Positions 7,740 to 61,100 of a DNA stretch of 61,834 nt are shown piece by piece. The notes below the pieces were generated by a model that worked only from the letters and a program-made list of their open reading frames with translations, was not told where the DNA came from and made no database searches. Positions within the stretch are counted from its first letter, which is position 1; the number at the start of each line of letters is the position of its first letter. The position numbers were made by a program, and so were the translations under genes. The stretch is from a virus, in the IMG/VR virus record IMGVR_UViG_3300020061_000006, positions 1 to 61,834 of that record. One strand, 5' to 3'.

Positions 7740-7750
7740 CCTGACAACGC

Positions 7751-7797
7751 AAAAAGAGCGGCACCCAACCCGAGAAGGGAAGGGTGCCGCTCTTTTT
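7751..7797. terminator. bidirectional terminator between convergent units
   Basis: AAAAAGAGCGGCACCC and its inverse GGGTGCCGCTCTTTTT form a long stem with A-run and T-run on either side, so it works in both directions. It separates the forward island from the leftward lysis cassette. Confidence 0.92.
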
Positions 7798-7803
7798 GCT
7801 GTG

Positions 7804-11274: not shown

Positions 11275-11280
11275 TACTCC

Positions 11281-11820
11281 TCAGAGCGGTATTACGGCCA
11301 TTCGCCTATCGGCAAAAGTTGCAGTAGTAGTCGTTGCGGTAACGGTTCTGTATTTGGCAGTGAATACATTTGACCCGGCAGTTAGCCCGGTATGCAAAAT
11401 CGTAAAGCTTACTCTATTTCCGCTTGTGCTCTGAATTATTAGAGAAGTGCTAGGGTCGGGAGCAACAGAGGTTGCACTTGATATCTGATAGCTCATAATG
11501 CTACCCGTACTAGCGGAACTATTACTTATGTTTGCATATAGGAAAACAAGAGCACGCGTTCCGGTTGAAACTGTTACCACTGGTCCAACCGTTGCCAGGT
11601 TCGTATAGGTCGAAGAGGTTGTTCCCTCGGATGTGGCTATGTAAGCTTGTGCTGGAATTCTTTCAGCTACAGAGTTCAATCCGTCAGAAACATATATAGC
11701 ACCCGGAGTCGTAGCTATGGCGGGTACGGTCTCTAGGCTGTTGTCGCGTAGATACGTATTCAGGTCGGCTGCCGTAAGAGTTGAATTTGCCGTAAATGTC
11801 TTGGGGGCCGTCCATGTCAT
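11281..11820 (-). CDS. tandem tail/fibre paralogue 7 of 7
   Basis: 179 residues. It follows the family pattern: an N-terminal MxWTxPxTF, an LTAADLNTYLRDN helix, an ER motif, a YTNLATVGPVVTV strand, an ALVFLYA strand, a GLTAGSNVFTAKY strand and an RRMAVIPL ending. The LNxxLRDN region matches the N-terminal tag of many siphovirus minor tail proteins. Its ATG overlaps the stop of paralogue 6 (ATGA). This copy and copies 5-6 are most alike in length and motifs. Confidence 0.75.
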   Translation of the reverse strand: MTWTAPKTFTANSTLTAADLNTYLRDNSLETVPAIATTPGAIYVSDGLNSVAERIPAQAYIATSEGTTSSTYTNLATVGPVVTVSTGTRALVFLYANISNSSASTGSIMSYQISSATSVAPDPSTSLIIQSTSGNRVSFTILHTGLTAGSNVFTAKYRTVTATTTTATFADRRMAVIPL

Positions 11821-12344
11821 AGCGGAAGGACCGCCATTCGCCTATTTGAGTAGGTCGAAATGCCTGAGCCGGTAATTTGATATTTTGCAGTAAAAGTATT
11901 TGTACCTGGCGTTAGCCCTGTATGCATTATGGCTCCGCCAGACCTCTGACCGCCGGCCCTGTTAAGATTTATTGCCCATATATTAGACGCTGCTGCTATG
12001 GTATCTCCGCTAACAGCGTATGACATCCATGCCGCAGTTGCAGTGGTAAGCATGTTGGCATAAAGAAACACGAATACACTAGTGCCGCATTCAACAGTTA
12101 CGGTCGGACCAATTGATGTCATATCTCCGTACGACGTAGACGCGTAGGTGTCGGAAACGGAAATAAAATCACTGGTCGGAGTGCGCTCTTGAATAGAATT
12201 TGGCGAGTCTGATATAAGCAAGCTTCCTGGCGTTTTAGATTTGGCGGGAGACATTTCAAGCATGTTGTCTCTTAGGTATATATTCAAATCAGACGACGCA
12301 AGAACAGTATTTGAAGCGAATGTCATTGGAGAAGTCCAAGCCAT
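11817..12344 (-). CDS. tandem tail/fibre paralogue 6 of 7
   Basis: 175 residues, the shortest copy. MAWTSPMTFASN, DLNIYLRDNMLEM, a GPTVTVECG strand, an SYAVSGDT strand, GLTPGTNTFTAKY and RRMAVLPL show the family order. The central region (GDTIAAASN...) differs strongly from the other copies, as expected of surface-exposed, fast-evolving tail parts. Confidence 0.75.
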   Translation of the reverse strand: MAWTSPMTFASNTVLASSDLNIYLRDNMLEMSPAKSKTPGSLLISDSPNSIQERTPTSDFISVSDTYASTSYGDMTSIGPTVTVECGTSVFVFLYANMLTTATAAWMSYAVSGDTIAAASNIWAINLNRAGGQRSGGAIMHTGLTPGTNTFTAKYQITGSGISTYSNRRMAVLPL

Positions 12345-12357
12345 TCGAACCCCTCCT

Positions 12358-12906
12358 TTATAGTGGAAATACGGCTAGCCGTCTGTAGCGCCAATCTCCC
12401 GTAAGAGACCCAGATACTCTATATTTAGCCGTAAACGTATTCATTCCTGGCGTCAAATCACCGTGAAGAATAGCTGCCCCCCATGCCTGTCCGGCATTAG
12501 CTGACCCCTGTTGCAATTGGATTGCCCTATTGTCGGACGCATCAGATTGCGTATCGCCGCTTACTTCATAACTCATCCAAGTTGGACCGCCCGTACTGCT
12601 CCACTGTTGACAGTACAGAAAAATCAATGCACTAACAGAAGTAGCGACCGTTACGGAGGGGCCAATTGTCGCTAGGTCCGTATAGTCAGTTGAGGTCGTA
12701 GTCTCTGATGCAGTTCCATTGTCTACGTAAGCACTTATCGTAGATCGCTCAGCAATCATCCCACGGGCCACTACGGCAAAATGCGATCCAGCGTGTACGG
12801 ATCGAGCCGGCATGGTTTCCAGCATGTTGTCTCGGAGATACGTGTTCAACTGAGATGCGGTGAGAACCGAGTTCGGAACGAAGGTAATTGGGGCGGTCCA
12901 AACCAT
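12358..12906 (-). CDS. tandem tail/fibre paralogue 5 of 7
   Basis: 182 residues: MVWTAPITFVPN, QLNTYLRDNMLET, ER, YTDLATIGPSVTV, ALIFLY, SYEVSGDT, DLTPGMNTFTAKY, RRLAVFPL. A two-gene block with copy 6; separated by 13 bases. Same role as its paralogues inferred. Confidence 0.75.
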   Translation of the reverse strand: MVWTAPITFVPNSVLTASQLNTYLRDNMLETMPARSVHAGSHFAVVARGMIAERSTISAYVDNGTASETTTSTDYTDLATIGPSVTVATSVSALIFLYCQQWSSTGGPTWMSYEVSGDTQSDASDNRAIQLQQGSANAGQAWGAAILHGDLTPGMNTFTAKYRVSGSLTGDWRYRRLAVFPL

Positions 12907-12915
12907 GAATGCCCC

Positions 12916-13482
12916 CTAGAGTGGAATGACGATTATTCGGCGAGTTGCAAATGCGGCCGTACTGCCTGATGATATGGAATACTTCATAGTGAATATATTC
13001 GAGCCCGGATTCAATCCACCCTCATACATAACACTAGACGCAAATAGTGTTTGCCCAACGGCGGGCGAGCCTACCGCCGAGTTGCTTCCCGCGTATCCCA
13101 ATGACCAGTTCACAGATGCGGCAATAGTTGTTGCTCCGGATACCGCATAAGAAGCGCGAACCGATCCGGTTGTACTTGGCGTTGAAACCTCGGCCCTAAT
13201 AATTATCAATGCGGCCGATCCGGTATCAACCGTCACCGAAGGTCCTACCGTGGCCAGGTCTGTAAATGCTCCTGTAGTAGAAAGAGTTTCGCTAGTAGCC
13301 ACGAAGTTCTGAACAACGCTTCGTGCCGCTATCGCGTTGCTGCCCGTGGCCACGAAGTATTGTCCGGTTGCCGTCGCCTTGGCCGGCGATGTTTCTAGAA
13401 AGTTGTCTCGCACATGCTGATTCCACTGGGCTGCCGTTAGCGCGGTATTCGACACGGCAGTCATAGGGGAAGTCCAAACCAT
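12916..13482 (-). CDS. tandem tail/fibre paralogue 4 of 7
   Basis: 188 residues, the longest simple copy: MVWTSPMTAVSN, QWNQHVRDNFLET, ARSVVQNFV, FTDLATVGPSVTV, SYAVSGATT, GLNPGSNIFTMKY, RRIIVIPL. The FTMKY ending and QWNxxVRDN form group it with copies 1, 2 and 3 rather than 5-7, suggesting two rounds of duplication. Confidence 0.75.
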   Translation of the reverse strand: MVWTSPMTAVSNTALTAAQWNQHVRDNFLETSPAKATATGQYFVATGSNAIAARSVVQNFVATSETLSTTGAFTDLATVGPSVTVDTGSAALIIIRAEVSTPSTTGSVRASYAVSGATTIAASVNWSLGYAGSNSAVGSPAVGQTLFASSVMYEGGLNPGSNIFTMKYSISSGSTAAFATRRIIVIPL

Positions 13483-13491
13483 TGATGCCCC

Positions 13492-14034
13492 TTAGAAAGG
13501 TATGACCACTATTTCGCGCTTGCCGAACGACGCGATACCAGAGCCGGCTAGGTACTTCATGGTGAATGTATTTACGCCGGCGGTGAGACCCGTGATGCGA
13601 TGTGCCACGCTTCTCCGCGTAGTCGAGAAAGCCGTCAGCCCGTCCATAAGGCACGACCAGTCATCGGAGGGAGCCACGGTCGTTGCGCCTATTACAGAGA
13701 AGGAGAAGCGGCTACTGGAGTCCGTAGAGGAATTGCTGACCTCGGCGGACATGAACACCAGTGCCGAAGTGTCAGTGCCAGCGTTCACGGACGGCCCGAA
13801 TGTCGCCAGGTTTCCATAGCTAGTCGCCACCGTATTTTCGGTAGCCGATATGACATTGCTATTTGTAAAGGCCGATTCCACGGAGTGAGCGGCTATGTTT
13901 ATGAAGTGGGCGCCTTCATTGCCGGATCCATTGAAAGCTTCCGTCTCGGCCATGTCGTCGCGCACGGTCGCATTCCAAATAGCGGCAGTGAGGGTATCGT
14001 TAAGAACCGCAGTGTAAGGCGACGACCACGTCAC
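13492..14034 (-). CDS. tandem tail/fibre paralogue 3 of 7
   Basis: 180 residues: MTWSSPYTAVLN, IWNATVRDDMAET, YGNLATFGPSVNA, ALVFMSAEV, FSVIGATTVAPSDDW, GLTAGVNTFTMKY, KREIVVIPF. The usual RDN is RDD here. The start overlaps the stop of copy 2 (ATGA at 14031-14034). Confidence 0.75.
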   Translation of the reverse strand: MTWSSPYTAVLNDTLTAAIWNATVRDDMAETEAFNGSGNEGAHFINIAAHSVESAFTNSNVISATENTVATSYGNLATFGPSVNAGTDTSALVFMSAEVSNSSTDSSSRFSFSVIGATTVAPSDDWSCLMDGLTAFSTTRRSVAHRITGLTAGVNTFTMKYLAGSGIASFGKREIVVIPF

Positions 14035-14576
14035 AGCGGAATCACCACAATTTCACGTTGCTCGAATTGGGCAGGCGTATAAGTGGGCTGACACCTATAT
14101 TTCATTGTGAAAGTGTTGTCGCCAGCGTTTAGCAATACTCCTCGACACGAACTAATCCGCTGAGGATTATTGCTCTTCACTCCTCCACTGGACGCCATCC
14201 AATTATCGCTAGCCCCTATTGATGTCGCCCCGCTTACCTCGAAACTTGCATATGCACCTTTACCGTCGGTCGTTGCCAGGTTCCGCATGCGAGCCGAGAC
14301 AAACACAACAGCCGCCAGGCAATTGACAGTTACCGAAGGGCCGGCGGTAGTCAGGTCTGCATAGCTAGTCGATATCGTCTGTCCGGAGTCATTGGCGACG
14401 GATGAAACGAACTTACGCTCAGCCAACTGATTAGTACCGCTGACCGTAAACCAGTTCCCCGGACCGCTAGCCTTCGCCGAAGCCATTTCAAGCAGATTAT
14501 CTCTGACGCTTTGGTTGTACTGAGCGGCAGTGAGAATGTCATTCGTGGCTACCGTGATCGGAGTGGACCAAGCCAT
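14031..14576 (-). CDS. tandem tail/fibre paralogue 2 of 7
   Basis: 181 residues: MAWSTPITVATN, QYNQSVRDNLLEM, ERKF, YADLTTAGPSVTV, VVFVSARM, ASFEVSGATSIGASDNW, LNAGDNTFTMKY, QREIVVIPL. It is the closest relative of copy 1 in the order of strands and shows where the extra domain of copy 1 is inserted. Confidence 0.75.
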   Translation of the reverse strand: MAWSTPITVATNDILTAAQYNQSVRDNLLEMASAKASGPGNWFTVSGTNQLAERKFVSSVANDSGQTISTSYADLTTAGPSVTVNCLAAVVFVSARMRNLATTDGKGAYASFEVSGATSIGASDNWMASSGGVKSNNPQRISSCRGVLLNAGDNTFTMKYRCQPTYTPAQFEQREIVVIPL

Positions 14577-14587
14577 CTAGACTCCTC

Positions 14588-15667
14588 TCATAGCGGCATC
14601 ACGATTATTTCCCTGCGCCTGAATGTTCCGGTAGCACCAGATACGCCAGCGGCGTACTTCATCGTGAATACATTCGACCCTGGAGTCAGCCCGGTAACCC
14701 TGCGGCAAACACTCCAACGATTGGCGTTCGCTGCCGTCATGCCAGACGAGTAGATCGACCAGGAATCGTCGGCTGCTATCGTGGAGGCGCCTGAGACGGC
14801 AAAGCTCGCTTTCGCGTATCCACCCGACACGCCTGGCTTGGAATAGGTCACACGCAATTGTGGTTGATTAGCTTGCCCGCTGCCGGCGAAGTAGCAATAA
14901 TACGAAGTGCTGTTACTTGGTGCCTTGCCCAGAGCTACGCCCTTTGCCGTGCCGTCCCTAAATGCATTTCCTATGGAGTTGCTAACTGTGACCCATTTAG
15001 ATTGGCCATTATCGAAGTGCGTACTAGAAATGCCCGGGGTGACACTTGAATATAGCTTGCTCCCGGAAAGACTGGTATTGGTATGGGTTCCTATGTAGAC
15101 ATTTCCTCCGCCATAAGAAAAGAAGTGGAGGTTACCTAGGAAAAGCTCAGTCTTAGAGATCGTCGCGCCGGCCAGGTCTGATGCGATGGTAGTTGTATTA
15201 AACGTACACATCGAAAACTGATTGCCATTGGTAGAATCAAAAAAGCCTTGGAACATGTGCCCACTATCGAAGCCGGACCTATTCGTCCCATCAGATTCAT
15301 AGCTTGCCGAACCGGTAGTCGCATACGTGCCAACCGCGCTGATGTCTGGCACACCTGGTCCGGTATCGCTTTGCAGCTCGCAGCCAATCCAAACGATCGC
15401 CTCAGAACCGGTCGTTGCAGTGACCGCAGGGCCGGCGGTAGTTAGGTCTCCATACGCGGCATTGGAGCGAGTCTCCGCCGTGGTAACGACAGCGCTGCCT
15501 AGAACGCGCTCGGCTATCGCGTTGGCCGCAGTGCTCATGAAGTAGCCGCCGGCCGTAGCCGCCTTGCCTGACATCGTTTCGAGCATGTTGTCCCGCACGT
15601 GAGAGTTCCACTGTGCGGACGTCCACACGGCGCGTTCAGCGGCCGTCATAGGGGCAGTCCAGGCCAT
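14588..15667 (-). CDS. tandem tail/fibre paralogue 1 of 7, with nested extra domain
   Basis: 359 residues from ATG 15667 (GGGGGG ribosome site). The longer upstream frame would run through the neighbouring gene and is not used. The first about 90 residues and the last about 85 are the family domain (AWTAPMTA, WNSHVRDNMLET ... ASFAVSGASTIAADDSW, FTMKYAAG, RREIIVMPL). Between them, after the VWIGCELQ strand, lies an insert of about 170 residues resembling the DNRLRE beta-sandwich: ISKTELFLGNLHF, a KWVTVSNSIGNAF strand, GKGVALG-like turns, a final QLRVTYS strand. A nested domain of this kind is a likely receptor-binding module. Confidence 0.75.
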   Translation of the reverse strand: MAWTAPMTAAERAVWTSAQWNSHVRDNMLETMSGKAATAGGYFMSTAANAIAERVLGSAVVTTAETRSNAAYGDLTTAGPAVTATTGSEAIVWIGCELQSDTGPGVPDISAVGTYATTGSASYESDGTNRSGFDSGHMFQGFFDSTNGNQFSMCTFNTTTIASDLAGATISKTELFLGNLHFFSYGGGNVYIGTHTNTSLSGSKLYSSVTPGISSTHFDNGQSKWVTVSNSIGNAFRDGTAKGVALGKAPSNSTSYYCYFAGSGQANQPQLRVTYSKPGVSGGYAKASFAVSGASTIAADDSWSIYSSGMTAANANRWSVCRRVTGLTPGSNVFTMKYAAGVSGATGTFRRREIIVMPL

Positions 15668-18023: not shown

Positions 18024-21000
18024 TTAGCCCCTACCCTTCCTTTTTATGTTCCTATTGGCGGCAACAACCATATCCTCGAAGTCTTTCTTGCTGGATATGA
18101 TCGCCCCACGAAGATCGTAGTAGTTGTCTCCACCACCACCGCCGATATCGTGATTGGCTATAATGCGCTCACCGCCGCGCATCTTCATCAACTCAGGGCC
18201 GCGCTCTCCAACCCACGCGTAGCCTGCCGATGCACCAGGCGTGCCATTGGCATACCAGTTATGAGCCTTCTCATGGTCCCACGCTTCAGCGGGCGTTCCG
18301 TAGCGACTGCGAATATAATCAAGACCCCAAAGAATCTGAGTCTTGTAATTAGTTCGCCAGTCCTTACCAGCCGATGCCATTTTCGATGCAGGCAAACTTT
18401 GCGGAATCCCGTAAGCCCCCGAAGTGGGGTTAGTAGCCGTGTAGCTCCAACCGCTCTCCTGATTCCACAACGATTTCAGTGGACCGAATTCCTTCGATCC
18501 CCAGTTGTAGTTTCCGAGAATCCCCTTAGCGAACGACTGAGCCTTTCCAGCGGCCTTTGCGTCGTAGCCTCTATTACTTGGGCCACCATCAGACGTGATG
18601 ATTTTTCCCAAATCATCAAGGGGTATCTTGCCCGTAGTGTCAGCAATTGTCGTTCCGACGTTGTGGATAAATGATCCCACGTGCTTAAAGCCGACCTTTA
18701 GACCCTTTAGGAGACCCTGCATAAGGGCGACGCCAGCGGGATGCAGGAGTCTGCGGTCTAGCTCAATGGGTCCCTTGTGCTTCTTAATCCATTTGGCTAC
18801 TCCGGAAACCCACTTCTGGACATCGGACCAAGGGGCTTTCAATCCGTCGAAGAACCCATTGATAACGTCCGAACCCTTGCTCTTAATCCAAGTACCGGCA
18901 CTCTTGAATACTGCCGTGGTCGGATTCTTTACATGCTTTCCGATCCACGTACTAAGGCCGCTCGCTACGTTTGCAATTCCGCTTGTCAGTCCGTTGACTA
19001 TAGAACGGCCCTTCGAGTAGAGCCAACTGCCAGCCGAAGAGAAGGCGTTCTTAATGGGGATGACGACATGCTTAGAAAGCCACTTGCCAACGCCGGCAAT
19101 GGCATTGAGAATGCCGTTTAGCATGCCGGAGATAATGAACACACCACGCGTGAACATAACCTTCGATGGGGAATGCATTTCAAACAGGCTGTCAATGCTA
19201 TCCATGAACGGCTTAAAGATGTGCTTGTCTATCCACTTGCCGATACCGGTAAACAGAGAGACTATGCCGTTCAATATGCCTTCGGAGAGGCTGCGGCCTG
19301 CCGTCGCCATAAGGATTACGGCAGCAGGGAAAACCCCAAGAATATCCTTGAAGAATTTTCCTACAGCTATTATGGCTTTAGCTGATCCGCCACCCATGGC
19401 CCTTCCTACGCCTTCAATAGCGTAAAGAGCCTTGAGGTATATAGTCGCGCCCCAGCCATCTATATTCTTCAAGACGGTACCAATAAATCTGCCGAGCGCT
19501 CCCTTTGCCCCTGGTATTTCCTTTTCGAAGCCGTCAACAAAAGCCTTCTTCAGGGGCTTCCAGATGACATCAAATGCCTTAGCAAAAGGCTTACCTATAT
19601 CGCCTATGCTCTTTAGCAGGGGGGCAATAACCTTCAGAATCGGAATGTGCTCAAATACCTTGGCGAGCGGCCCTGCTATCTTACCAATTCCCACCAGGGA
19701 GAGAACGCCTATGATCGCGTCAAGCCAGTGCTTTTTCCAGAAAGATGCGCTAAATAGGTCAGTGCCCAGACTTGCCAGGAAGCCGAGTGCGAATCCTATT
19801 GCGTTACCACCGATTGACTTGCCGACATTGACCCAATCGACTTTCTTTGCAACATCGGTGATCATCTTTCCGAGGTCGGCTATACCAGACATCGCAAACA
19901 TGAAGGCAACGCCCAGGATATGCCCCAACACCTTGCCGACAGTTTTTGCGTCCAGGCCTGAAATGGCGTCCGTAATCGTCTTAGAGAGCTGATTCTTTAC
20001 AGACGGTCCCTTGGCGTTCGTCAGCTTCTTAGCCTGAGTGAGGCTGAGGTTTTCACCAGTCTGCATAATGCCGCCGGGATTCGCCTTGCCGGCAGACGCA
20101 AGAGCCTTCGCCCCCGAACCTTCGCCAGACTTGAACGTCTTTATCGGATTGAGCGTCTTAGTTATCGCCTCAGCTTGAGCCTTTGTTGTGCCAGGCTGAA
20201 TAGTCGGACGAACCGGATAGGTCGGAAGGTGGTAAGACTGGTACTTAGTCGTCTTCTTAGTAGTCGGCGAAAGCTTATCGATCAGCTTATCTACGCCAGT
20301 CGATTTCAAAGCATTGGACAGAAGATCCTCTACTTGACCTATCTTCGATTTGATAGTGTCAACGGGGATCATGTCACCTATGGCGTCCTTGAACTTTCCA
20401 GCCGCCGGCAAGCCGACCTGAACAATCCACTCCGCAAACGAAGTGACCGGAGGAAGGAGCTTGTTGCCAAGCTCAATCGACATAGTCTCTACTGCCGACT
20501 TCAGCAGATTGAATTGAGCCTGAGCGGTTTTCCTCTGGGCTGCAACAGCCGGCCCGTACTTGCCCATGCTCGCATTAACCTGATTCTGCTTCTTCTGCAA
20601 AACGTCGTAGTTGTTAACTAGCGACATAATTGCGGAAGAAGACTTGCCTCCACCGAACGCCATAGACAGCAACTGAGCTTGCTTGGTAGCGCTCAGGCCG
20701 GCGGCATCCATCTTGCTCTTAAGCAGGCCCACGGCGCCCACCAGGCCGCGCGGAGAACGCATCTCATTCGCAAGCTCTGTACCGGTAAGGCCAATCGTTT
20801 TCAGGACCTTAGAAGCAGCCTTAGAAGGAGCGCCCAGGAGTGAAATGGTCATACGGAGTCTGGTTGCAGCACTCGCTGCACCGACGCCTTCATCCGTGAA
20901 CACGGCCAGTGCTGCGCCGACGGATGAGAATGTTAGACCGAACGTTTTTGCAGTCGGGAGAATACCGGTTCCCAATGCGGAAACCATATCTTCCATCGTC

Positions 21001-35479: not shown

Positions 35480-35508
35480 TCAGAGGCCTGTAAGGGGTGG
35501 CATAACTG
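35360..35508. repeat. inverted array of 12-bp iteron-like repeats
   Basis: Six copies of CAGTTATGYCAG or its complement: CAGTTATGTCAG 35360-35371, CAGTTATGCCAAG 35379-35391, CAGTTGTGTCAG 35430-35441, then in the other orientation CTGGCATAACTG 35446-35457, CTGACATAACTG 35464-35475 and TGGCATAACTG 35498-35508. AAGTATGCCAAG (35389-35400) is a partial copy. Three copies point each way around 35443. The last copy lies within the end of the helicase gene. Confidence 0.8.
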
Positions 35509-36682
35509 CGGGAGTCTCGATCTTGGGCAGCGACCAGTAGGAGACAAGATCACGACCGAAGCCGGAGCGTTCTACTACTACGTCCAAGGACTTCCTAGCC
35601 CTATGCAAAGAGGATTCCGAAATACCCTCCTGCCTGGCCGCAGTCTTGGCGTCTTTCGCGTTTGTTTTTCCTTGCGACTCCAAAAGATCCTTAAGAAACT
35701 TCTTCGCGTCGGTCATCTGTCCGCCATCGCTCAAGCTGGACTCTGCGAGAACGTCGGAAGTTTTGACCTTTGTAGTACCGGTAATTTTGATAAAAGAAGT
35801 TGAGATAAAATTGCCATCTTCGGTGAACGAGAACGGTTCGATAGTATACGTATAGCTATCGATATTCAGGTTCCCTAGATTGCTCTTTTCCTGTGAAAGG
35901 ATGTAGCCATTTTCTACTTCAGGATCCGCAATGACGCCCATAGCCGATCGGCATACGTTACCCATTTCAGTGCTTCCCAAAATGGCATCCATAAGGTTGT
36001 TCGTCATTGCCTTGCGCGTGTGCGCCAATCCGATAGCTGCCAAATTGTTTTCAATGCACATTTTCTGAATTGCTTGCATACTGGTCCGCATGAACGATCC
36101 TGTGTCGCCCTTAATCGATTCAAGGTTTGCGCTCAGCGGGTCGAGCATCACGCACGCCGCATCGACGCTACGCGCTGCTTCCGCCATGCGCTCACAGTCT
36201 CGCGGTAGGATCACGTTGCTGTCCGGCACGGACACGAAGAAGATGCGCGACAGTTCCGCGCCGGCAGCGACCATGCGAGGCTTCACCGTTCGTTCTAGCG
36301 AATCCTCGTTGACCACATATAGCACTGACTTGGGCTTGCCGAAAAAGCTGCCGTCCATGTTGCCGGTCGTGATGTCCGCAGCGATGCGAGCGAGCATCGT
36401 TGACTTGCCTACGCCACCACGACCAGCGATTAGGGTGATCTCCCCCATGGGAACGCGCTCTTTCCAAAGCCAATGCGTCGTAAGAGACCGAATACCGGAC
36501 GCACCGGTAAGGACAATCGAGCGGCCGGCTTGCAGCTCCTTCTCTGCTTCCTCCTGCCCTTTCTTCTTAGCAATCGTCTTTTCTTTTTCGATCTCAGTAA
36601 GACGAATGCGTTTATCTTCGGCAATAAAACGTGCAACAGGATCCCGTTGTGCTGCAACCTGATCTAGTTGCGTTTCCTGCAT
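35480..36682 (-). CDS. RepA-like hexameric helicase / AAA ATPase
   Basis: 400 residues from ATG 36682; a longer opening to 36793 lies inside the upstream gene. A coiled N-terminus (RIRLTEIEKEKTIAKKK) leads to Walker A IAGRGGVGKSTML and Walker B AACVMLDPL, the order of AAA_25/RepA (RSF1010-type) helicases: GEITLIAGRGG, VLYVVNEDS, GLAHTRK. A winged-helix-like C-terminus (TAARQEGISESSLHRARKSL) fits an origin- or DNA-binding end. It ends within a repeat array, so it probably initiates replication there. Confidence 0.85.
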   Translation of the reverse strand: MQETQLDQVAAQRDPVARFIAEDKRIRLTEIEKEKTIAKKKGQEEAEKELQAGRSIVLTGASGIRSLTTHWLWKERVPMGEITLIAGRGGVGKSTMLARIAADITTGNMDGSFFGKPKSVLYVVNEDSLERTVKPRMVAAGAELSRIFFVSVPDSNVILPRDCERMAEAARSVDAACVMLDPLSANLESIKGDTGSFMRTSMQAIQKMCIENNLAAIGLAHTRKAMTNNLMDAILGSTEMGNVCRSAMGVIADPEVENGYILSQEKSNLGNLNIDSYTYTIEPFSFTEDGNFISTSFIKITGTTKVKTSDVLAESSLSDGGQMTDAKKFLKDLLESQGKTNAKDAKTAARQEGISESSLHRARKSLDVVVERSGFGRDLVSYWSLPKIETPAVMPPLTGL

Positions 36683-42856: not shown

Positions 42857-43289
42857 TGCGTTCCTCCGTAAGCTTTCCGTTGACATAGGTCTTGCCGGCC
42901 GCGCTCTTATACGTGACGTTGAACTCTTCGGGACCCTTCTCGAAAGAACTACAGCTATTCATCAGTATTGATGTCACTTCAATAGGGTTACTACTAATCA
43001 TCACGGATATGCGGTTGTCTCCGCCAAGGTCACGCAGCCACATAAGAACTGCATTGATCAGTAGACGTTGCCGACGCTGCATTTCCACTGTGTCATCTAT
43101 GGCGTCACCAAGAATCTTTACGTTCTCGCGCGTTCTCTTGAGTTCTTCCTCAAGCTTCGCGATGCGGCATGACTTGGACTTCTCCCACTTGCGAACCCTT
43201 GCGCAAGGCCAGGGCTCTTCGCATCGCACGCAGAACTCTTCTTCAGTTTCATCGTCAAAGTCTGACGTGTGCTTCTTAGGCTCTTTCAC
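42837..43289 (-). CDS. coiled-coil protein with cysteine motif
   Basis: 150 residues from GTG 43289. FCVRCEEPWPCARVRKWEKS is a C-x2-C-x5-C knuckle followed by a long charged coiled coil (IAKLEEELKRTRENVKIL). C-terminal beta region (VMISSNPIEVTSILMNS). Function unknown. Confidence 0.65.
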   Translation of the reverse strand: MKEPKKHTSDFDDETEEEFCVRCEEPWPCARVRKWEKSKSCRIAKLEEELKRTRENVKILGDAIDDTVEMQRRQRLLINAVLMWLRDLGGDNRISVMISSNPIEVTSILMNSCSSFEKGPEEFNVTYKSAAGKTYVNGKLTEERSVRSNG

Positions 43290-43746
43290 TACAGCACCAA
43301 TTCCCGTCGTAGTCCTGCTTGCGTTCGCCGTAGCTTCGGGCTGCCCTGGTCGCCTCCATGGTCCCGAGCAATACGGCGCCGCAATCGTCTTCCGTTGATC
43401 CGTCAACGCGGAACACCACGTAGTCGCGTCCGATGTACTCGACCGTCCGGCACGTATAACTGTCACGACCGAAGTAGCCGCCGGCATAGCCGTGCACCCG
43501 GTTCCCTACGCGTAGCGCACTGTCTACGGTGCGCCTTTCCAGGTTGTCTACTCTGGAGATTTTGAGGACAACCGAGAAAAACGGCCGGCGGTCCAACGCA
43601 TCGAAGAAGCTTGCCGTATCGACCGCAGGCATTCTGTGATCTATCTGGAGATCGGGAATCCCACTGCCCGCGTACTCTGTTCCGTTCGCTCCCGCGACGC
43701 GAAACGTCACTGGCCCGTCGCCCTGCTGAATGAACTCAAACGCCAT
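43276..43746 (-). CDS. 156-residue beta-rich protein
   Basis: ATG 43746 (GAGGAAG upstream). Strands VTFRVAGANGTEYAG, FFSVVLKISRVDNLE, DYVVFRVDGSTED. VGNRVHGYAGGYF suggests a compact beta barrel. No known family recognised. Confidence 0.65.
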   Translation of the reverse strand: MAFEFIQQGDGPVTFRVAGANGTEYAGSGIPDLQIDHRMPAVDTASFFDALDRRPFFSVVLKISRVDNLERRTVDSALRVGNRVHGYAGGYFGRDSYTCRTVEYIGRDYVVFRVDGSTEDDCGAVLLGTMEATRAARSYGERKQDYDGNWCCSERA

Positions 43747-44011
43747 TGCGCTTCCTCTCGTATGTACTCTCTATCGCGTTGCAATGCTCTTCATTGGTAA
43801 GCACGTGGCGATGCACATACCGCCGTACGAAGAGGTGTCTCTGAACGTTTCGCATGGTGTGCTGAAATGACATCGTTCCGCCGTAGTAGGTCGAGCCGGC
43901 GAGCGAGCACGCGAGGCAAACCCAAAGCCAACGGCCGGCTACCCGTGGCGGCTTGTACCGCTGACCGATGCTGATGGGCTGATAGCGGATGACAATGAAC
44001 GGGATTGGCAT
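43736..44011 (-). CDS. 91-residue protein with hydrophobic segment
   Basis: ATG 44011 with GGGGAGGAA directly upstream. MPIPFIVIRYQPISIGQRYK, then WLWVCLACSLAGSTYYGG, a short hydrophobic stretch that could be a half-span, and a His/Arg-rich end. First gene of the leftward unit that runs back-to-back with the forward island. Confidence 0.65.
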   Translation of the reverse strand: MPIPFIVIRYQPISIGQRYKPPRVAGRWLWVCLACSLAGSTYYGGTMSFQHTMRNVQRHLFVRRYVHRHVLTNEEHCNAIESTYERKRNGV

Positions 44012-44026: not shown

Positions 44027-44055
44027 TTGCATTGGCGTTGGCGGTCTGCTTTAAT
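44027..44055 (+). promoter_or_regulatory. forward promoter P1
   Basis: TTGCAT (44027-44032), 17 bases, TTTAAT (44050-44055), then AGAGACATCGC. P2 shares both the -35 element and the AGAGACATCGC start region. Confidence 0.75.
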
Positions 44056-44096
44056 AGAGACATCGCAAAGGTCGGACGCAAAGGGGAACGGAAATC

Positions 44097-44312
44097 ATGA
44101 CGCACAGGAAGCTTTCGCAGGGTCAGGCCAAATCGCTTCGTGAAACCGCCAGCGTGATAGGTCGAATCCCAGGTGCGACCAACACGCTTAAGTCTCTCGT
44201 TCGTCGCGGCTTGGCGACTTGGAGTTACGAGAGCAACAGTGGCACGGTTCGCAAGTGCGCCATCCTCACCGATGCCGGAATCATTGCTCGCAAGGAATTG
44301 CGCTCCGCGTAA
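44097..44312 (+). CDS. 71-residue winged-helix-like protein (cassette 1)
   Basis: ATG 44097 with AAGGGGAACGG upstream. GQAKSLRETASVIGRIPGAT, LKSLVRRGLATW and a KCAILTDAGIIARKEL ending follow MarR/winged-helix layout (helix, recognition helix, beta wing, LTDAG turn). It is read against the surrounding operons from its own promoter and ends in its own terminator. A small DNA-binding regulator is plausible. Confidence 0.75.
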   Translation: MTHRKLSQGQAKSLRETASVIGRIPGATNTLKSLVRRGLATWSYESNSGTVRKCAILTDAGIIARKELRSA

Positions 44313-44318
44313 TCGGCA

Positions 44319-44341
44319 ACCCCCTAGGGAAACCGGGGGGC
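44319..44341 (+). terminator. terminator of cassette 1
   Basis: CCCCC ... GGGGG stem with loop TAGGGAAACC, starting eight bases after the stop. Followed by CATTGCTCTG rather than a T-run. Confidence 0.7.
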
Positions 44342-44367
44342 ATTGCTCTGTCCAATGACTTGCATTG
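44335..44367 (+). repeat. 33-bp terminator-promoter repeat, copy 1
   Basis: Identical to 44732-44764. The repeat starts in the descending arm of the cassette 1 terminator and ends in the -35 region of P2, so it copies a terminator-promoter joint between cassettes. Confidence 0.9.
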
Positions 44368-44388
44368 GCCTATCCGGCTATGCAATAA
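44360..44388 (+). promoter_or_regulatory. forward promoter P2
   Basis: TTGCAT (44360-44365), 17 bases, CAATAA (44383-44388), then AGAGACATCGC as in P1. Confidence 0.75.
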
Positions 44389-44427
44389 TAGAGACATCGC
44401 AAGGGAAACACTGAAAGGGCGGGCACC

Positions 44428-44700
44428 ATGACTCGCAAGGTAACTGCACAGAAGGCCACGTTCGGCGGCTCCAAGGCACTGGTCGTCACCGCATTGCACA
44501 CAGCAAAGATCACCGGAGCGCGTGACGTTTACACCCTGTGGGTTGAGGACGCGCCCGCGAAGAACGGCGGATACGCGGCGGGCACCATCACTCACCGCTG
44601 GATTGACGGAGACGGCCGTTACGCGGACAAGCACGAAGCGACCGAAACGAAGGTTGTCACGCGCGAGTCGCTTCCCGCCGACGTGCGGGACAAGTTCTGA
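44428..44700 (+). CDS. 90-residue protein (cassette 2)
   Basis: ATG 44428 with GAAAGGGCGGG upstream. Beta-rich: KALVVTALHTAKITGARDVY, TLWVEDAPAKNGGYAAGTIT and a charged KHEATETKVVTRE stretch. Basic protein of unknown fold. Own promoter and terminator. Confidence 0.75.
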   Translation: MTRKVTAQKATFGGSKALVVTALHTAKITGARDVYTLWVEDAPAKNGGYAAGTITHRWIDGDGRYADKHEATETKVVTRESLPADVRDKF

Positions 44701-44712
44701 TCAATGCAATCC

Positions 44713-44738
44713 GCCCCCCGGCTTCCAAAGCGGGGGGC
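44713..44738 (+). terminator. terminator of cassette 2
   Basis: GCCCCCCG/CGGGGGGC, an 8-bp perfect stem with a 10-base loop, beginning 12 bases after the stop at 44700. Confidence 0.75.
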
Positions 44739-44764
44739 ATTGCTCTGTCCAATGACTTGCATTG
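44732..44764 (+). repeat. 33-bp terminator-promoter repeat, copy 2
   Basis: Identical to 44335-44367; joins the cassette 2 terminator to the -35 region of P3. The two copies differ in the -10 region that follows. Confidence 0.9.
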
Positions 44765-44785
44765 CAGCATTCGAGCTGTCATACT
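44757..44785 (+). promoter_or_regulatory. forward promoter P3
   Basis: TTGCAT (44757-44762), 17 bases, CATACT (44780-44785). Confidence 0.7.
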
Positions 44786-44815
44786 CGAATCAACGCGAAG
44801 CGATAGGAGAAGAAA

Positions 44816-45058
44816 ATGGGTTACACGGGAACCTGGCAGACCGAGTGGGTAAAGACGGAAGCCGGCGAGATGAAGCGCACGTACGGCGGTCGGACCGTGT
44901 CCGTTCTGCCGAACGGAACCGTGTGGGCAAAGACTTCGCGAGCCAACAACATGGTTCGCAATGGAAGTGACGGCCAAGAGGCCGGAATGAAGTGGGCTGA
45001 CGGGCGCTACTCGCTCAAGAGTATTTCAGAACGGGAAGAGCACTTGCGCCAATCCTGA
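44816..45058 (+). CDS. 80-residue protein (cassette 3)
   Basis: ATG 44816 with GATAGGAGAAG upstream. MGYTGTWQTEWVKTEAGEMK, a TVSVLPNGTVWAKTSRANNM strand pair, and a basic KSISEREEHLRQ tail. Beta-rich, no family recognised. It ends 11 bases before a terminator. Confidence 0.75.
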   Translation: MGYTGTWQTEWVKTEAGEMKRTYGGRTVSVLPNGTVWAKTSRANNMVRNGSDGQEAGMKWADGRYSLKSISEREEHLRQS

Positions 45059-45068
45059 TCAACGCGAC

Positions 45069-45100
45069 GCGCCCCGGCGGCTACGGCTATCGGGGCGCTT
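45069..45100 (+). terminator. terminator of cassette 3
   Basis: GCGCCCCG/CGGGGCGC stem, then TT. The -35 of the following promoter begins at its end. Confidence 0.75.
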
Positions 45101-45129
45101 TGACGCGACGCGTCAGCATCCGCTAAGCT
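45100..45129 (+). promoter_or_regulatory. promoter P4 of a putative small RNA, with operator-like palindrome
   Basis: TTGACG (45100-45105), 18 bases, TAAGCT (45124-45129). The -35 and spacer hold a perfect palindrome TGACGCG-A-CGCGTCA (45101-45115), a candidate operator. Confidence 0.65.
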
Positions 45130-45135
45130 TCGCAT

Positions 45136-45224
45136 GTTCGGCCGTTCTCCAAGGTGCGGCCGGATGAGAGAAGCCACGCTCCGGATTAAAGGTCTCGCCA
45201 CCTCCGGAGCGTGGCTTCTCGTTT
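45136..45224 (+). ncRNA. candidate phage small RNA
   Basis: Between P4 and a 17-bp perfect terminator stem (GAGAAGCCACGCTCCGG 45168-45184 with its inverse 45204-45220, then TTT) there is no ORF with a ribosome site. The roughly 90-base transcript would start with a GGCCG...CGGCC hairpin (45140-45162) and end in the terminator. The long stem is also placed to terminate the leftward gene at 45229, so it may simply be a bidirectional terminator; the promoter supports an RNA. Confidence 0.5.
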
Positions 45225-45228
45225 GCCC

Positions 45229-45414
45229 TCAGCCTTCCGCGTGCTCCGCATCGGTCATCAGGTCGGATTCCCACACGATCGTTCGAGCGCCATTATCCCA
45301 GTCGACTTCTACGCGCACAATCGTGGTAAATGCAAGATTAAGTGATTCGGCCTCACTCATCACGCGGCCTTTGCTGTTGTCATACCAAACGCTGTCACCG
45401 ACCGCGAATCGCAT
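45229..45414 (-). CDS. 61-residue protein following TerD
   Basis: ATG 45414 overlaps the TerD stop (TGATG). MRFAVGDSVWYDNSKGRVMS begins as an SH3-like beta barrel, with VEVDWDNGARTIVWESDL next; the layout resembles small phage SH3-type proteins that bind DNA or RNA. Function unknown. Confidence 0.7.
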   Translation of the reverse strand: MRFAVGDSVWYDNSKGRVMSEAESLNLAFTTIVRVEVDWDNGARTIVWESDLMTDAEHAEG

Positions 45415-49123: not shown

Positions 49124-49836
49124 TAAAGTCCTCTTTGATATGCGGAACGGATCTCTTCCTTGACGATTGGCTTTCCCAGGAACTCGTTAGCTATATATTG
49201 TGAATAAGCTGGTGGAATCGCTTCGGCCAGCGTCACCTTGTCTGTTATCCAGTCAATCCCCATGGCGCTCTGCCATTCTTCAATGGTGCCTTTGTTTCCG
49301 CCCGTTCCATACACAGGGAAGTAATACCCTTCCGTCGTGTACGTTCCGCGAACGGCACGACCGGCCCCCTTAGTCGGTCCTACGTGCTCCACATGCCTTA
49401 GCGTCTGCGGCAAGAATCCGCCGCATTCTATGATCCGATGGCGGACCACTCGCAACCCGAACATCTCGCCGCAAAGCATCAGGTCGCTACGCATGGGGCC
49501 CGTCTTCTCCATGGGCGGAACGTTCTCCATGGCGAATGGGACGCGAGCTTTCATCAGGGCTTTACGCGTCTGGGAGATCAGGATTCTGTATTTCGCTCGC
49601 TGTGCAGCGGGTGTAATCGTGCTCGCGCCCTGACATGGAGGACTTGCCCAAGCGAAGTCATATTCGTGAGCATGGTCCAATGCGAATTGGACAGCATTAG
49701 CTAGTATGAAATCGTCTCCGCAATACTCAGGCTGATTGAAGAAGTCAACACCCGTTACGTGAAATCCAGCCCGTTGCAGTCCCTTAGTCGCCCCTCCCCC
49801 GCCGCAATAAAGATCCAACACCCTGAGTCTAGGCAA
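49123..49836 (-). CDS. C5 cytosine DNA methyltransferase
   Basis: 237 residues from TTG 49836 (GGGGAGGAAGC upstream). Motif I is DLYCGGGGATKGLQRAGF, motif IV ASPPCQGAS with nucleophile Cys68, motif VI ENVP, and RHRIIE stands where motif VIII QxRxR is expected. No cognate nuclease lies beside it, so it is an orphan methylase, probably protecting phage DNA from host restriction or marking DNA. The recognition sequence cannot be read. Confidence 0.9.
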   Translation of the reverse strand: MPRLRVLDLYCGGGGATKGLQRAGFHVTGVDFFNQPEYCGDDFILANAVQFALDHAHEYDFAWASPPCQGASTITPAAQRAKYRILISQTRKALMKARVPFAMENVPPMEKTGPMRSDLMLCGEMFGLRVVRHRIIECGGFLPQTLRHVEHVGPTKGAGRAVRGTYTTEGYYFPVYGTGGNKGTIEEWQSAMGIDWITDKVTLAEAIPPAYSQYIANEFLGKPIVKEEIRSAYQRGL

Positions 49837-50722
49837 GCTTCCTCCCCTGTAGCCGGTAGGCAGATCTTATCGTCTGCTCCGCTTGGCGTTGCCCCCCGTC
49901 GCCACCGTTCAGAACGTACGCGTTGCCAAGCACCGATACGGCTTCTTCTTCGGGAATGGAGTCGTTGCACGCCGCGCGTGCAGCCCAAAGCAATGCGTTG
50001 TTTCGGTTGCCGTCGGGTGCGGTCAGTACGGCTTCTTCCAGGCCGCTGATATGGCCCCCTGAGGCCGGCCTGACGAACTCCGACAGCGACGCGGGCACAA
50101 CGTCCCGCGCCCCGTCGGTGCAGTACCGCACAAGCCATTCGGGAGCGTCCGCAACGGGCAGGTCGTTCTCTACGACGTAGCCACCTTTTTCCGTGCATGA
50201 GCCGGCGCCCAGGACGTAGCCGCCATCCTTGCCGCCGTTGCCGCGCACATCGCACAAGCCTTTGAAGATGGACGCCTGGCTTGACAGTACGTCTTCCGGC
50301 CACCGGTAGTAGTAGTGAATGCCTAGGCTTCCGGTGCAAACTGAATAGGTATTCCGTACTTCAGCCCAGTCCGCACCGCACTCCGTGGCGAGATACTCAA
50401 ATACACCAGTTCCGTCAACCATCGGTCCGCGTGTGTCGTGCAGTTCTGCAAATCGTGATCCTGCCAACTGATATTCTCGCTTAGGCATGTCACAATCGAC
50501 GACAAAGAGATTCGACGGCTTACACGCGATTCCGACATTAGCCTCAGGGCTCCACTGCCAGTAGTTCAGGACGGCTGCTAGGTCATTGGTGGACCGCTCA
50601 CCCCATTTAAGCGTCCAGGGCTTGTCTTCCCGGATCTTGTGCGGCGTCTTTTCCAGCGGCTGCACCGGAAACACATACCATCCGCGCTGAATCGCACGCA
50701 CCGCGTCAGCTAGGAGGTTCAT
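49829..50722 (-). CDS. primase-polymerase (AEP superfamily)
   Basis: 297 residues. Prim-Pol features in order: AIQRGWYVFPVQPLEKTPHK, LKWGERST, NVGIACKPSNLFVVDCDM with catalytic Asp76/Asp78, GIHYYYRWPED, and CDVRGNGGYVLGAGS. A helical C-terminus (NNALLWAARAACND) follows. There is no separate DnaG or polymerase in the window, so this enzyme probably makes primers, possibly extending them. Coupled to the methylase gene. Confidence 0.88.
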   Translation of the reverse strand: MNLLADAVRAIQRGWYVFPVQPLEKTPHKIREDKPWTLKWGERSTNDLAAVLNYWQWSPEANVGIACKPSNLFVVDCDMPKREYQLAGSRFAELHDTRGPMVDGTGVFEYLATECGADWAEVRNTYSVCTGSLGIHYYYRWPEDVLSSQASIFKGLCDVRGNGGKDGGYVLGAGSCTEKGGYVVENDLPVADAPEWLVRYCTDGARDVVPASLSEFVRPASGGHISGLEEAVLTAPDGNRNNALLWAARAACNDSIPEEEAVSVLGNAYVLNGGDGGQRQAEQTIRSAYRLQGRKLA

Positions 50723-59016: not shown

Positions 59017-59037
59017 GGTTTCCCTTCCCCTCTCCAG

Positions 59038-59111
59038 TACCCCGCATGGGACTTGAACCCATGACCTTCCGATTATGAGTCGGGTGCTCTAACCATCTGA
59101 GCTAGCGGGGC
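59038..59111 (-). tRNA. tRNA with CAU anticodon (Met-type)
   Basis: Acceptor GCCCCGC/GCGGGGT (one G-U), D-arm GCTC...GAGC, anticodon stem CCCGA/TCGGA with loop CTCATAA (CAT), T-arm ATGGG-TTCAAGT-CCCAT, discriminator A. Elongator Met or, after lysidine modification, Ile(AUA). 74 bases, no CCA. Confidence 0.95.
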
Positions 59112-59119
59112 GTTTTCAC

Positions 59120-59413
59120 CTACGCGTTGGTAATCTTCTTCACGTAGGACGTGCGCTGACACTCGGCGTAGATGACCGGGTATGTTTCCTTGAAGTAGGT
59201 CTGATCGATCCCGACCTTTTGCGTGACGACCACTGAAAGCACATTCGGAATGTGCTTCGTTTCCGCCCGCTCCTTCGAATCGGTCGAATAGCCCATCGTC
59301 ATGAGGATTGCTGCCGTGAGGCGCTTCTCCTCTTTCTCCCATGCGAGACGCGCCTCACTGGCCCTGTCTCGCTTGGCTTTGAGTTCTTTCAGGTACTGGT
59401 CGCCTTCGGTCAC
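59120..59413 (-). CDS. 97-residue coiled-coil protein
   Basis: GTG 59413, overlapping the upstream TGA. MTEGDQYLKELKAKRDRASE with EARLAWEKEEKRL is a coiled coil; the C-terminal half has NVLSVVVTQKVGIDQTYF strands. Function unknown. Confidence 0.7.
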   Translation of the reverse strand: MTEGDQYLKELKAKRDRASEARLAWEKEEKRLTAAILMTMGYSTDSKERAETKHIPNVLSVVVTQKVGIDQTYFKETYPVIYAECQRTSYVKKITNA

Positions 59414-59550
59414 TTCTTTTTCCCTTTCAATGCGTCCGCGAACGCAGTTACCGCGTCGCTCATGCCACGCGTTACGGACGATCTACCGTGCGCACGCCCT
59501 ACGCCGTACGCGATAGCGACGACGATGAGGATTGCGAGGATGGAATGCAT
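59410..59550 (-). CDS. 46-residue single-span membrane protein
   Basis: ATG 59550. MHSILAILIVVAIAYGVGRA spans the membrane; the tail is small and basic (ADALKGKKK). Ends in the GTGA overlap with the coiled-coil gene. Confidence 0.65.
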   Translation of the reverse strand: MHSILAILIVVAIAYGVGRAHGRSSVTRGMSDAVTAFADALKGKKK

Positions 59551-59552
59551 TT

Positions 59553-59828
59553 CTACTCCCCCCAATCATGCACGGTCACTCGCACGGGACGGTTGAATGT
59601 CGAGCCGTGGGAAGTCAGGCTCACAGGCGGCTCTTTATCGGTCAGTTCTCCCCAGATGGCGACCCATTGGGACGCCTTGCCGATGGTGGGGAAATGCAGC
59701 TCGACAAAGCCGTATGCTTTCAGCACGTTGTCTAGGGTGTCGCCAGGCGCCACGCTGAAGTTCTTTGGCAGCGTCCCGTCGAAGCACTCAAGCACTTTCG
59801 GATGGAGCATTTCACTTGCGATACTCAC
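59553..59828 (-). CDS. 91-residue protein
   Basis: MSIASEMLHPKVLECFDGTL, LDNVLKAYGFVELHFPT, a QWVAIWGELTDKEPPVSL strand and RPVRVTVHDWGE. Soluble alpha/beta; no motif recognised. Confidence 0.65.
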   Translation of the reverse strand: MSIASEMLHPKVLECFDGTLPKNFSVAPGDTLDNVLKAYGFVELHFPTIGKASQWVAIWGELTDKEPPVSLTSHGSTFNRPVRVTVHDWGE

Positions 59829-60189
59829 TGACGACTCCCGCCTTTATGGCAAGCGCGCGATACGCTTCCCATGCGTCGCAGTTCCAATGAAAATCCTTGG
59901 CAACTTGGTCGAGTTCCGCGAGTGTCGCCGGCAGCACGCTTAGAACCATCAGGGCTTCGAATGGACGGCTCTCACAGTGCTCGACAACCCACACACCCAA
60001 AGGCGTGCTGTAGGTCTCTGAGAGCTTCGCCCACGCTTCGGACTCCTTCGCAGCGCGTTCCTTACGCAGCGTCTTAGCGGCCGCGAGGAACGCCGAATAG
60101 TCCACCATGCTGTCAAGCGCGCTGAGAATTTCGGCGTAATACCAGTCCCATAGCCGATGGCGCTCTGCCCTGAATTCGCCTACGTTCAT
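59812..60189 (-). CDS. 125-residue helical protein
   Basis: ATG 60189, overlapping the 30-residue gene. MNVGEFRAERHRLWDWYYAE, then LAAAKTLRKERAAKESEAWAK: almost all helix. Ends AIKAGVVSEYRK. Function unknown. Confidence 0.65.
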   Translation of the reverse strand: MNVGEFRAERHRLWDWYYAEILSALDSMVDYSAFLAAAKTLRKERAAKESEAWAKLSETYSTPLGVWVVEHCESRPFEALMVLSVLPATLAELDQVAKDFHWNCDAWEAYRALAIKAGVVSEYRK

Positions 60190-60278
60190 CGCGTCCACAC
60201 CGCTATGCAGACGGCCGCGAGAACGAGGAACGCGATCTTCACGCATTCCCATGCGCTGAACTTGCGATACTCACGCAT
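60186..60278 (-). CDS. 30-residue membrane micro-protein
   Basis: ATG 60278. MREYRKFSAWECVKIAFLVL, then AAVCIAVWTR: basic head and one span. Overlaps the stop of the upstream gene and the start of the next. Confidence 0.6.
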   Translation of the reverse strand: MREYRKFSAWECVKIAFLVLAAVCIAVWTR

Positions 60279-60477
60279 GCATCTCTCCGTCACTGGTGGC
60301 CGGCGGTGTGCCCTGCTTCAGAAGACGACGCGTCGAGCTCCACAGGCTCACCTCTCGCAAGCCGAGAAGCAGCACTGCCTCGAATACCTCTTCGGCAGCG
60401 GTCGGCGTCGGACACTCCGCAGTGCCTATCTGCCCATTCCGCGACCGCCACGTAACCGTGTACCCAACTGAATCCAT
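60271..60477 (-). CDS. 68-residue protein
   Basis: ATG 60477 (GAAAGGAA upstream, after AAGGGGGTAC). MDSVGYTVTWRSRNGQIGTA, a VFEAVLLLGLREVSLWS helix/strand and a polar end. Function unknown. Its upstream terminator separates it from the last gene on the right. Confidence 0.65.
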   Translation of the reverse strand: MDSVGYTVTWRSRNGQIGTAECPTPTAAEEVFEAVLLLGLREVSLWSSTRRLLKQGTPPATSDGEMHA

Positions 60478-60512
60478 TTCCTTTCGTACCCCCTTCATGT
60501 GGACATGAAGAA

Positions 60513-60539
60513 AGCCCCTGGCGTGGATTGCCAGGGGCT
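60513..60539 (-). terminator. intrinsic terminator
   Basis: On the minus strand AGCCCCTGGC-aatccac-GCCAGGGGCT then TTCTTC, 16 bases after the stop at 60555. It closes the first leftward transcript of this arm. Confidence 0.85.
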
Positions 60540-60554
60540 GTAAGTAGCTGTAAT

Positions 60555-60737
60555 TCAGTTCTTCAGTGCTTCCGCAACCTGCGCCCAAGCGATTGCGTCG
60601 TTACGGTCCTGATTGTTTTCCGGTCGCTCTGCATTGCGATCGGAACGACGCATAGCCGCGTACGCCCGGTACTGCGCGTCATTAAGAGCAATAGCACGCT
60701 CATCACGGGGCATGCTGTACTGCCTTGACTCTTCCAC
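60555..60737 (-). CDS. 60-residue protein, first gene of the right arm
   Basis: GTG 60737 (GAAGGGTATTTC upstream) is preferred; ATG 60713 is an alternative. MEESRQYSMPRDERAIALND, then YRAYAAMRRSDRNAERPENN: helical and Arg-rich. Has its own terminator. Function unknown. Confidence 0.6.
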   Translation of the reverse strand: MEESRQYSMPRDERAIALNDAQYRAYAAMRRSDRNAERPENNQDRNDAIAWAQVAEALKN

Positions 60738-61013
60738 GAAATACCCTTCAATAGGTTGTGCTAGTGCGCGTAGGGGGAATCGAACCAACGCGTCAGACGT
60801 GAGTCTGAGGCGTCCCTAGTACGTCTACCGTCGGATCCGTGTTTCCCGTACTCTGTCGGATTGCGGACCGTGCCAGACACGCGCGGCCCTAAGCGTCGCG
60901 AACACTAGGACCTTTACCACGTCGAATCAATGCGGCCCACACCGTTGAAATGGGCTGCATCTATCGACTGCCGCTTTCTCCCGCCAAATACGGTTAGGTA
61001 AGTGGCCAACCTA

Positions 61014-61100
61014 GTCCCGGTAGCCGGATTCGAACCAGCGATATCAATTCGGGGAGCGTCTGGGGAAAGCGCCCGTCATATCCAACTGCCTACTACCGGG
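61014..61100 (-). tRNA. tRNA-like element, non-canonical
   Basis: 8-bp acceptor CCCGGTAG/CTACCGGG and a T-arm GCTGG-TTCGAAT-CCGGC are clear. The D-arm cannot be formed, and the anticodon-like GGGCG/CGCTC stem has an 11-base loop (CTTTCCCCAGA). Length 87 bases. It could be a decayed or specialised tRNA or a tRNA-mimicking RNA. Confidence 0.4.

Follow-up and report, generated by a model that had tools for sequence, protein, structure and literature searches.

The moron concept is said to stem from Juhala in 2000 and from Hendrix, and the promoter early stem-loop (PeSL) was reportedly the subject of papers by Arbiol in 2010 and Comeau in 2014. Morons are usually single genes. In one account, they were described as genes that often move together with a promoter and a terminator of their own (PMC2147016), and in another, the accessory loci of prophages were described as characteristically antisense to the lytic genes (PMC7067206). 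In these accounts, such extra genes are transcriptionally isolated and vary in their presence between related phages. The PeSLs of T4-type phages were presented as composite promoter-terminator motifs that are thought to mediate the shuffling of ORFs (PMC4503421), and PeSL-like motifs were suggested for the haloarchaeal virus HGTV-1 (PMC3950731).

The window analyzed here was the whole of the 61,834-base virus record IMGVR_UViG_3300020061_000006, in which three small forward genes (c1, c2, and c3) formed an array of about 1.07 kb (44027-45098), laid out as three monocistronic units opposite the lytic early operon. With a probability of roughly 0.6, this locus is best explained as a tandem array of morons in a temperate actinophage, built at the joint between terminator and promoter, where the promoter and terminator activities are predicted and the genes would be expressed in the lysogen. 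The array joins two known ideas, morons and PeSL, and is not a new system. Like morons as characterized in the accounts above, its genes have a predicted promoter and terminator of their own and are absent from the relatives searched, and the gene calls and hairpins revealed an isolated layout that is antisense to the lytic genes. Unlike the usual moron, it comprises three genes in tandem that share regulatory DNA and a repeated joint. The resemblance to PeSL, as that source describes it, lies in the repetition of a composite of stem-loop and promoter between different small ORFs. In contrast to the lytic, T4-like phages and high copy density described for PeSL, the array belongs to what is probably a temperate actinophage, has two full joints, and occupies the strand opposite the early operon. 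Instead of a T4-like phage with T4-type early promoters, the window presented terminase, portal, and tail genes related to those of actinobacterial phages. Since the phage is not T4-like, the array may work like PeSL but is not a member of it. No such array in an actinophage was found in the open-licence literature searched.

The proteins of the window pointed to tailed phages of actinobacteria, with the terminase, portal, and capsid matched in PHROG. The nearest relatives of the terminase were those of the Rhodococcus phages Jflix2, Madraxi, Shagrat, and REQ1 (48-49%), while the primase-like protein had relatives in Streptomyces and Actinacidiphila genomes. A serine recombinase was encoded at 2730-4217, and no immunity repressor was recognized among the genes of the window; hence, it is the recombinase, together with the integrated relatives, that speaks for lysogeny. 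The window is probably a temperate actinophage, and in terms of host environment and group, a probably temperate virus of soil actinobacteria. Besides these genes, the phage was found to encode an Lsr2-like protein (6400-6906, Lsr2 DNA-binding domain E 1e-12). A run of leftward genes at 10648-15649, probably of tail or fibre type, encoded products that start alike (approximately M-WTSPMT--N--LTA--N-YLRDN-LE) and are apparently paralogous. Near both ends of the record (1027-2419 and 59037-61100), tRNA genes for Lys, Lys, and Asn and for Met and Gly were observed, which may represent phage tRNAs or host flanks.

According to the codon-model gene calls, nearly every gene of the window lies on the minus strand and is therefore leftward. 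Only five forward calls scored at least 10, including c1 (10.0), c2 (25.3), c3 (13.9), 7387-7575 (18.7), and 7566-7739 (11.1), and four further short forward calls had scores from 3.4 to 5.3. The only other well-scored forward genes, at 7264-7739, end at an 18-bp hairpin (7749-7799) with A/T-rich outer pairs, and family searches gave no convincing match for them. The array itself is located in the leftward early/replication region, which includes a primase-like gene (49829-50722) and a helicase/primase-like gene (35480-36682), and its immediate neighbors are the leftward genes at 43736-44011 (start chosen from its ribosome site) and 45229-45414 (start according to the ORF list, where the codon model placed an inner start). 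The original prediction of three small genes opposed to all neighbors was borne out by the codon-model calls, and a promoter-like site and a hairpin were identified for each gene from the motif and the folds.

The three cassette genes, all on the plus strand, encode products of 71 (c1, 44097-44312), 90 (c2, 44428-44700), and 80 (c3, 44816-45058) amino acids. Under a model trained without the array, their coding scores per codon were 0.098, 0.242, and 0.135, respectively, where none of the 61 shadow ORFs of 60-110 amino acids reached 0.098 (maximum of 0.076) and the called leftward genes in the same size range averaged 0.129 (n = 40). All three score as coding. Their codon usage resembled that of the phage's own genes; hence, a recent foreign origin is not indicated, which counts against the moron reading. 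As had been predicted for the genes between the copies of the joint, the three are different: pairwise alignments spanned only 7-18 residues with E about 0.1, which indicates that the proteins are mutually unrelated.

Among the three products, c2 had homologues in named phages. It consists of a single domain that, in Arthrobacter phages, is embedded in the longer proteins DrYang gp98 and ArV1_090, whereas gp71 of Microbacterium phage FuzzBuster likewise contains the domain by itself (tblastn E of 5e-8, 3e-5, and 1e-2, respectively, and E of 1e-13 to 1e-8 in a second search). The gene of the longer DrYang/ArV1 protein is near a gene for a ssDNA-binding protein. The predicted structure of c2 from a single sequence was too poor for use (pLDDT 62). 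For c1, no match was found in Pfam, NCBIfam, or PADLOC, and a single PHROG match had E 0.28. Its fold, predicted from a single sequence, was of low confidence (pLDDT 65) and a fold search with the model returned nothing at E 0.001 or better, while a likeness to a small winged helix-turn-helix was noticed by eye only. A candidate assignment of c1 as uL30-like (E 0.045) was dismissed as chance. For c3, the only matches were weak and IceA2-like (E 0.06 to 0.08). No convincing homologue of c1 or c3 was found in the named phages, plasmids, IMG/VR pattern scans, and genomes searched. Judged by position and size, accessory functions are the likeliest roles for all three genes.

Each gene is preceded by a putative promoter of the extended -10 type, with TG one base before the -10 element. 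These included P1 (44027-44055, TTGCAT-17-TTTAAT, TGC before the -10), P2 (44360-44389, TTGCAT-18-AATAAT, TGC before the -10), and P3 (44757-44785, TTGCAT-17-CATACT, TGT before the -10), all on the plus strand and identified from the sequence and motif statistics. The spacing of 17 bases originally proposed for all three holds for P1 and P3, but the spacer of P2 is 18 bases. The distances from the end of the -10 element to the start codon were 41 (c1), 38 (c2), and 30 (c3) bases. Of the four window occurrences of the strict motif TTGCAT-N16-19-[TAC][AT]TA[AC]T, three were in the array, while 30 dinucleotide shuffles of the window yielded zero to two occurrences each and five in total. By the rules of E. 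coli, the hexamers of P1-P3 are weak: TTGCAT agrees with TTGACA at only three of six positions, and a strict sigma-70 scan for TTGACA-like sites (9 of 12) found none. Generic promoter weights of 8.6, 9.0, and 8.5 for P1, P2, and P3 were ordinary, as a value of 8.6 is reached by 111 sites on the forward and 77 on the reverse strand of the window; hence, it is the repetition and placement of these sites, rather than their strength, that argues for promoters.

A GC-rich hairpin follows each gene on the plus strand and is its presumed terminator: T1 (44315-44347, RNA fold z of -2.4) after c1, T2 (44706-44743, z of -3.5, with none of 200 shuffles as stable) after c2, and T3 (45069-45098, z of -2.9) after c3. 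The z-scores against shuffles were modest, and none of the three hairpins has a T-tract, for which reason termination at these sites is presumed. Terminators of actinobacteria often have no T-tract. With respect to the earlier claim that each gene has its own terminator, a hairpin folding better than shuffles follows each gene, but the hairpins differ from the canonical form and a scan for canonical terminators listed none on the plus strand of the array.

The joint between terminator and promoter occurs twice as a perfect repeat of 34 bp, one base longer than the 33 bp originally reported. Copy 1 (44334-44367) runs from the 3' arm of T1 to the -35 element of P2, and copy 2 (44731-44764) from the 3' arm of T2 to the -35 element of P3, both on the plus strand; with an extension to 44330-44367 and 44727-44764, 37 of 38 positions are identical. 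A repeat of this length was not matched in any of 100 shuffles. A second repeat links the leaders of cassettes 1 and 2 (44047-44085 and 44381-44419, 77%), all three leaders can be aligned, and the 3' flanks of c2 and c3 match as well, with T2 and T3 alignable beginning at the stop codon. A comparison of P1 with P2 showed that the -35 element, the extended -10 element, and the start of the transcribed region are retained, whereas their spacers have different sequences and are unequal in length by one base. Similarly, T1 and T2 both fold despite having different 5' arms, where the perfect repeat covers only the 3' arm. Such conservation of promoter elements and of folding is the pattern expected of functional sites around unrelated genes. 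Growth of the array by duplication or recombination of the joint, as first proposed, would be the simplest history, and it agrees with the likeness of all three leaders.

Downstream of T3, an 18-bp perfect hairpin at 45168-45220 was identified by repeat and fold and is presumed to terminate transcription in both directions, from the array on one side and from the leftward TerD operon on the other. The original prediction had extended the array to 45225 and had therefore taken in this separate hairpin, which lies at the meeting point with the TerD operon. Well-scored genes converge at only one other place in the window, which is marked by the similar 18-bp hairpin at 7749-7799, and because such hairpins mark both convergent junctions, both were read as two-way terminators. 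The interval 45100-45225 may include a fourth forward unit. A tentative promoter at 45100-45129 (plus strand, TTGACG-18-TAAGCT, generic score of 10.0) is overlapped by a 15-bp inverted repeat (45101-45115) that has no second copy in the window, no gene was called before the next hairpin, and the segment 45128-45231 was very stable (z of -7.4). A small-RNA gene composed of the candidate promoter and the 18-bp hairpin is possible, and a two-way terminator explains the hairpin equally well. An Rfam scan of the array region gave one match, which was below the threshold and taken as chance.

An operator-like palindrome, CAATG-N5-CATTG, recurs around the promoters. Exact copies overlap the -35 elements of P2 (44353-44367) and P3 (44750-44764, within the joint repeat), another exact copy is upstream of the leftward gene 43276-43746 (43782-43796), and a copy with one mismatch is about 20 bp upstream of P1 (43993-44007). 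With at most one mismatch, the window had 11 sites, where shuffled sequences had 2.2 on average, for a motif that was picked after seeing the sequence. At least three palindromes within 1 kb occurred in one of 500 shuffles, where the window has four, or three when the second copy of the repeat is discounted, as two of the sites represent one duplication. Farther from the array, several of the sites coincide with start codons or lie within genes. The cassettes may share one regulator through this palindrome, which serves as a lead only, and, given its position on the -35 boxes, expression may be regulated instead of constitutive.

In the proposed mechanism, each unit would consist of an extended -10 promoter, a short leader, a small ORF, and a GC-rich hairpin, in this order. 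The host RNA polymerase would start at P1-P3 and transcribe each gene apart from the lytic cascade, the transcript of each unit would end at its own hairpin (T1-T3), and these hairpins together with that at 45168-45220 would keep transcription of each unit separate from that of the other units and of the leftward operon. The joint would be the recombining piece, duplicated or recombined in such a way that new genes end up between its copies, as proposed for PeSL, and the palindrome at the -35 elements may place the units under one regulator. We infer the promoter and terminator activities, the expression in the lysogen, the recombination at the joint, and the regulator from the nucleotide sequence.

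Several other explanations were weighed against the moron array. The cassettes could be early-lytic genes for host takeover, with host-type promoters that fire on entry and an array that is silent or irrelevant in the lysogen, as for the early regions with PeSL in T4-type phages, which we regard as possible, though improbable. The location inside the early/replication region is consistent with this explanation, as is the derivation of the closest structural parallel, PeSL, from phages described as lytic (PMC4503421); however, an orientation against the lytic genes is given as a typical trait of the accessory loci of prophages (PMC7067206). If the cassettes are early-lytic, the moron label would be wrong and the joint mechanism would stand. 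It is distinctly unlikely that the array is instead part of lysogeny control, where c1 would be a small DNA-binding protein whose targets are the palindromes at P2 and P3, the one close to P1, and the one preceding a leftward gene. While the excess of palindromes (11 against 2.2 in shuffles), their clustering (1/500), the short winged helix seen by eye in c1, and the lack of any other recognized repressor candidate in the window argue for such a role, the motif was chosen post hoc, several of its sites are at start codons or inside genes, and c1 has no family match and a poor fold model (pLDDT 65, no match at E 0.001).

Another history would involve no acquisition at the joint, but rather a tandem duplication of whole cassettes followed by divergence of the ORFs past recognition. 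The alignable leaders of all three units and 3' flanks of c2 and c3 would be expected from such duplications, yet the regulatory DNA is 77-97% identical while the proteins align over just 7-18 residues (E about 0.1), and outside homologues were found for c2 alone, which leaves this history very unlikely. That the array is a product of chance or artefact, with spurious ORFs and a repeat of neutral origin, is extremely improbable: the orphan status of c1 and c3 agrees with it, but the coding scores exceed those of all 61 shadow ORFs, c2 has homologues, and the motifs cluster.

As a tandem moron array, the locus would provide a concrete, small example of a possible route by which accessory genes build up in a temperate phage, where conservation and duplication concern the regulatory joint rather than the genes. 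Should the joint recombine, it would link the moron idea with the idea of PeSL shuffling, and accessory genes in other prophages could be sought by the signature of a stem-loop and promoter that recur between genes on the anti-operon strand. Additionally, the orphans c1 and c3 may be unstudied factors of phage-host interaction.

The distribution of the cassettes was examined in phages, viral collections, plasmids, and genomes. By tblastn, c1-c3 had no match in 15 loci of related phages and none in a set of 32 loci compiled from collections of genomes and of viruses. No c2 was found in 49 records, which are part of 93 viral-contig loci, or in 20 further records, where the control search recovered the known distant homologues (4/4, including the window). 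Pattern scans of IMG/VR for c1, c2, and c3 returned 22, 5, and 17 fitting stretches, respectively, none of which encodes a relative, and the joint repeat as an exact pattern was not found there. A pattern fitting P1 and P3 occurred in two of 157 loci, both of which are pieces of the window itself. The array DNA had no match among the named phages, and c1-c3 had none among plasmids. In whole genomes, which were samples of larger groups, c2 was found in none of 394 from the class, and c1 and c3 in none of 297 each from the family of a related host; a genome scan with the c2 alignment revealed no relative in 27 stretches. The original prediction had named a gene order fixed in all relatives as the contrary outcome, and none of the relatives searched carried the genes. 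With respect to cassette gain or exchange, no relative searched was close enough to share the joint.

The flanking genes were not syntenic, and no relative searched keeps both flanks of the array. The homologue of 45229-45414 in record G007 had no adjoining gene on the opposite strand, and a TerD homologue without an opposite-strand neighbor was observed in Dryad, Yara, L131, L145, and L148. Gene strands were listed for 25 of the 32 loci, some of which represent the same phage twice and are not independent (e.g., L127 with L142, and L146 with L147), and five of the 25 had no opposite-strand gene at all. Elsewhere in the relatives, opposite-strand genes were found at 19796-20617 of G020 (three genes), 17365-17511 of L126, 7993-8541 of L141, and 11864-12049 of L131. 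As judged from these loci, anti-operon genes vary across this phage group, and within the scope of the searches the array was confined to this phage.

A survey of intergenic repeats in 44 sequences (865,703 bases, with some overlapping or from the same phage) identified one further clear case. In G010, a related Streptomyces prophage (locus L115), two genes on the opposite strand form a unit bordered by intergenic copies of a perfect 31-bp stem-loop repeat, at positions 25385 and 26270 (5385 and 6270 of L115). Like the joint of the array, it is a perfect intergenic stem-loop repeat opposite in strand to the early operon, but its sequence is unrelated, its genes are others, and no TTGCAT promoter was recognized; it is a joint of similar kind that arose independently. 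A broader proposal, that temperate actinophages carry a general PeSL-like device for gene capture in which an anti-operon joint slots in small genes as individually transcribed units and the -35 palindrome co-regulates them automatically, is doubtful. In record G007, a dense block of short repeats was observed in an intergenic region (L119 17510-18240), which is possibly an origin or an operator array.
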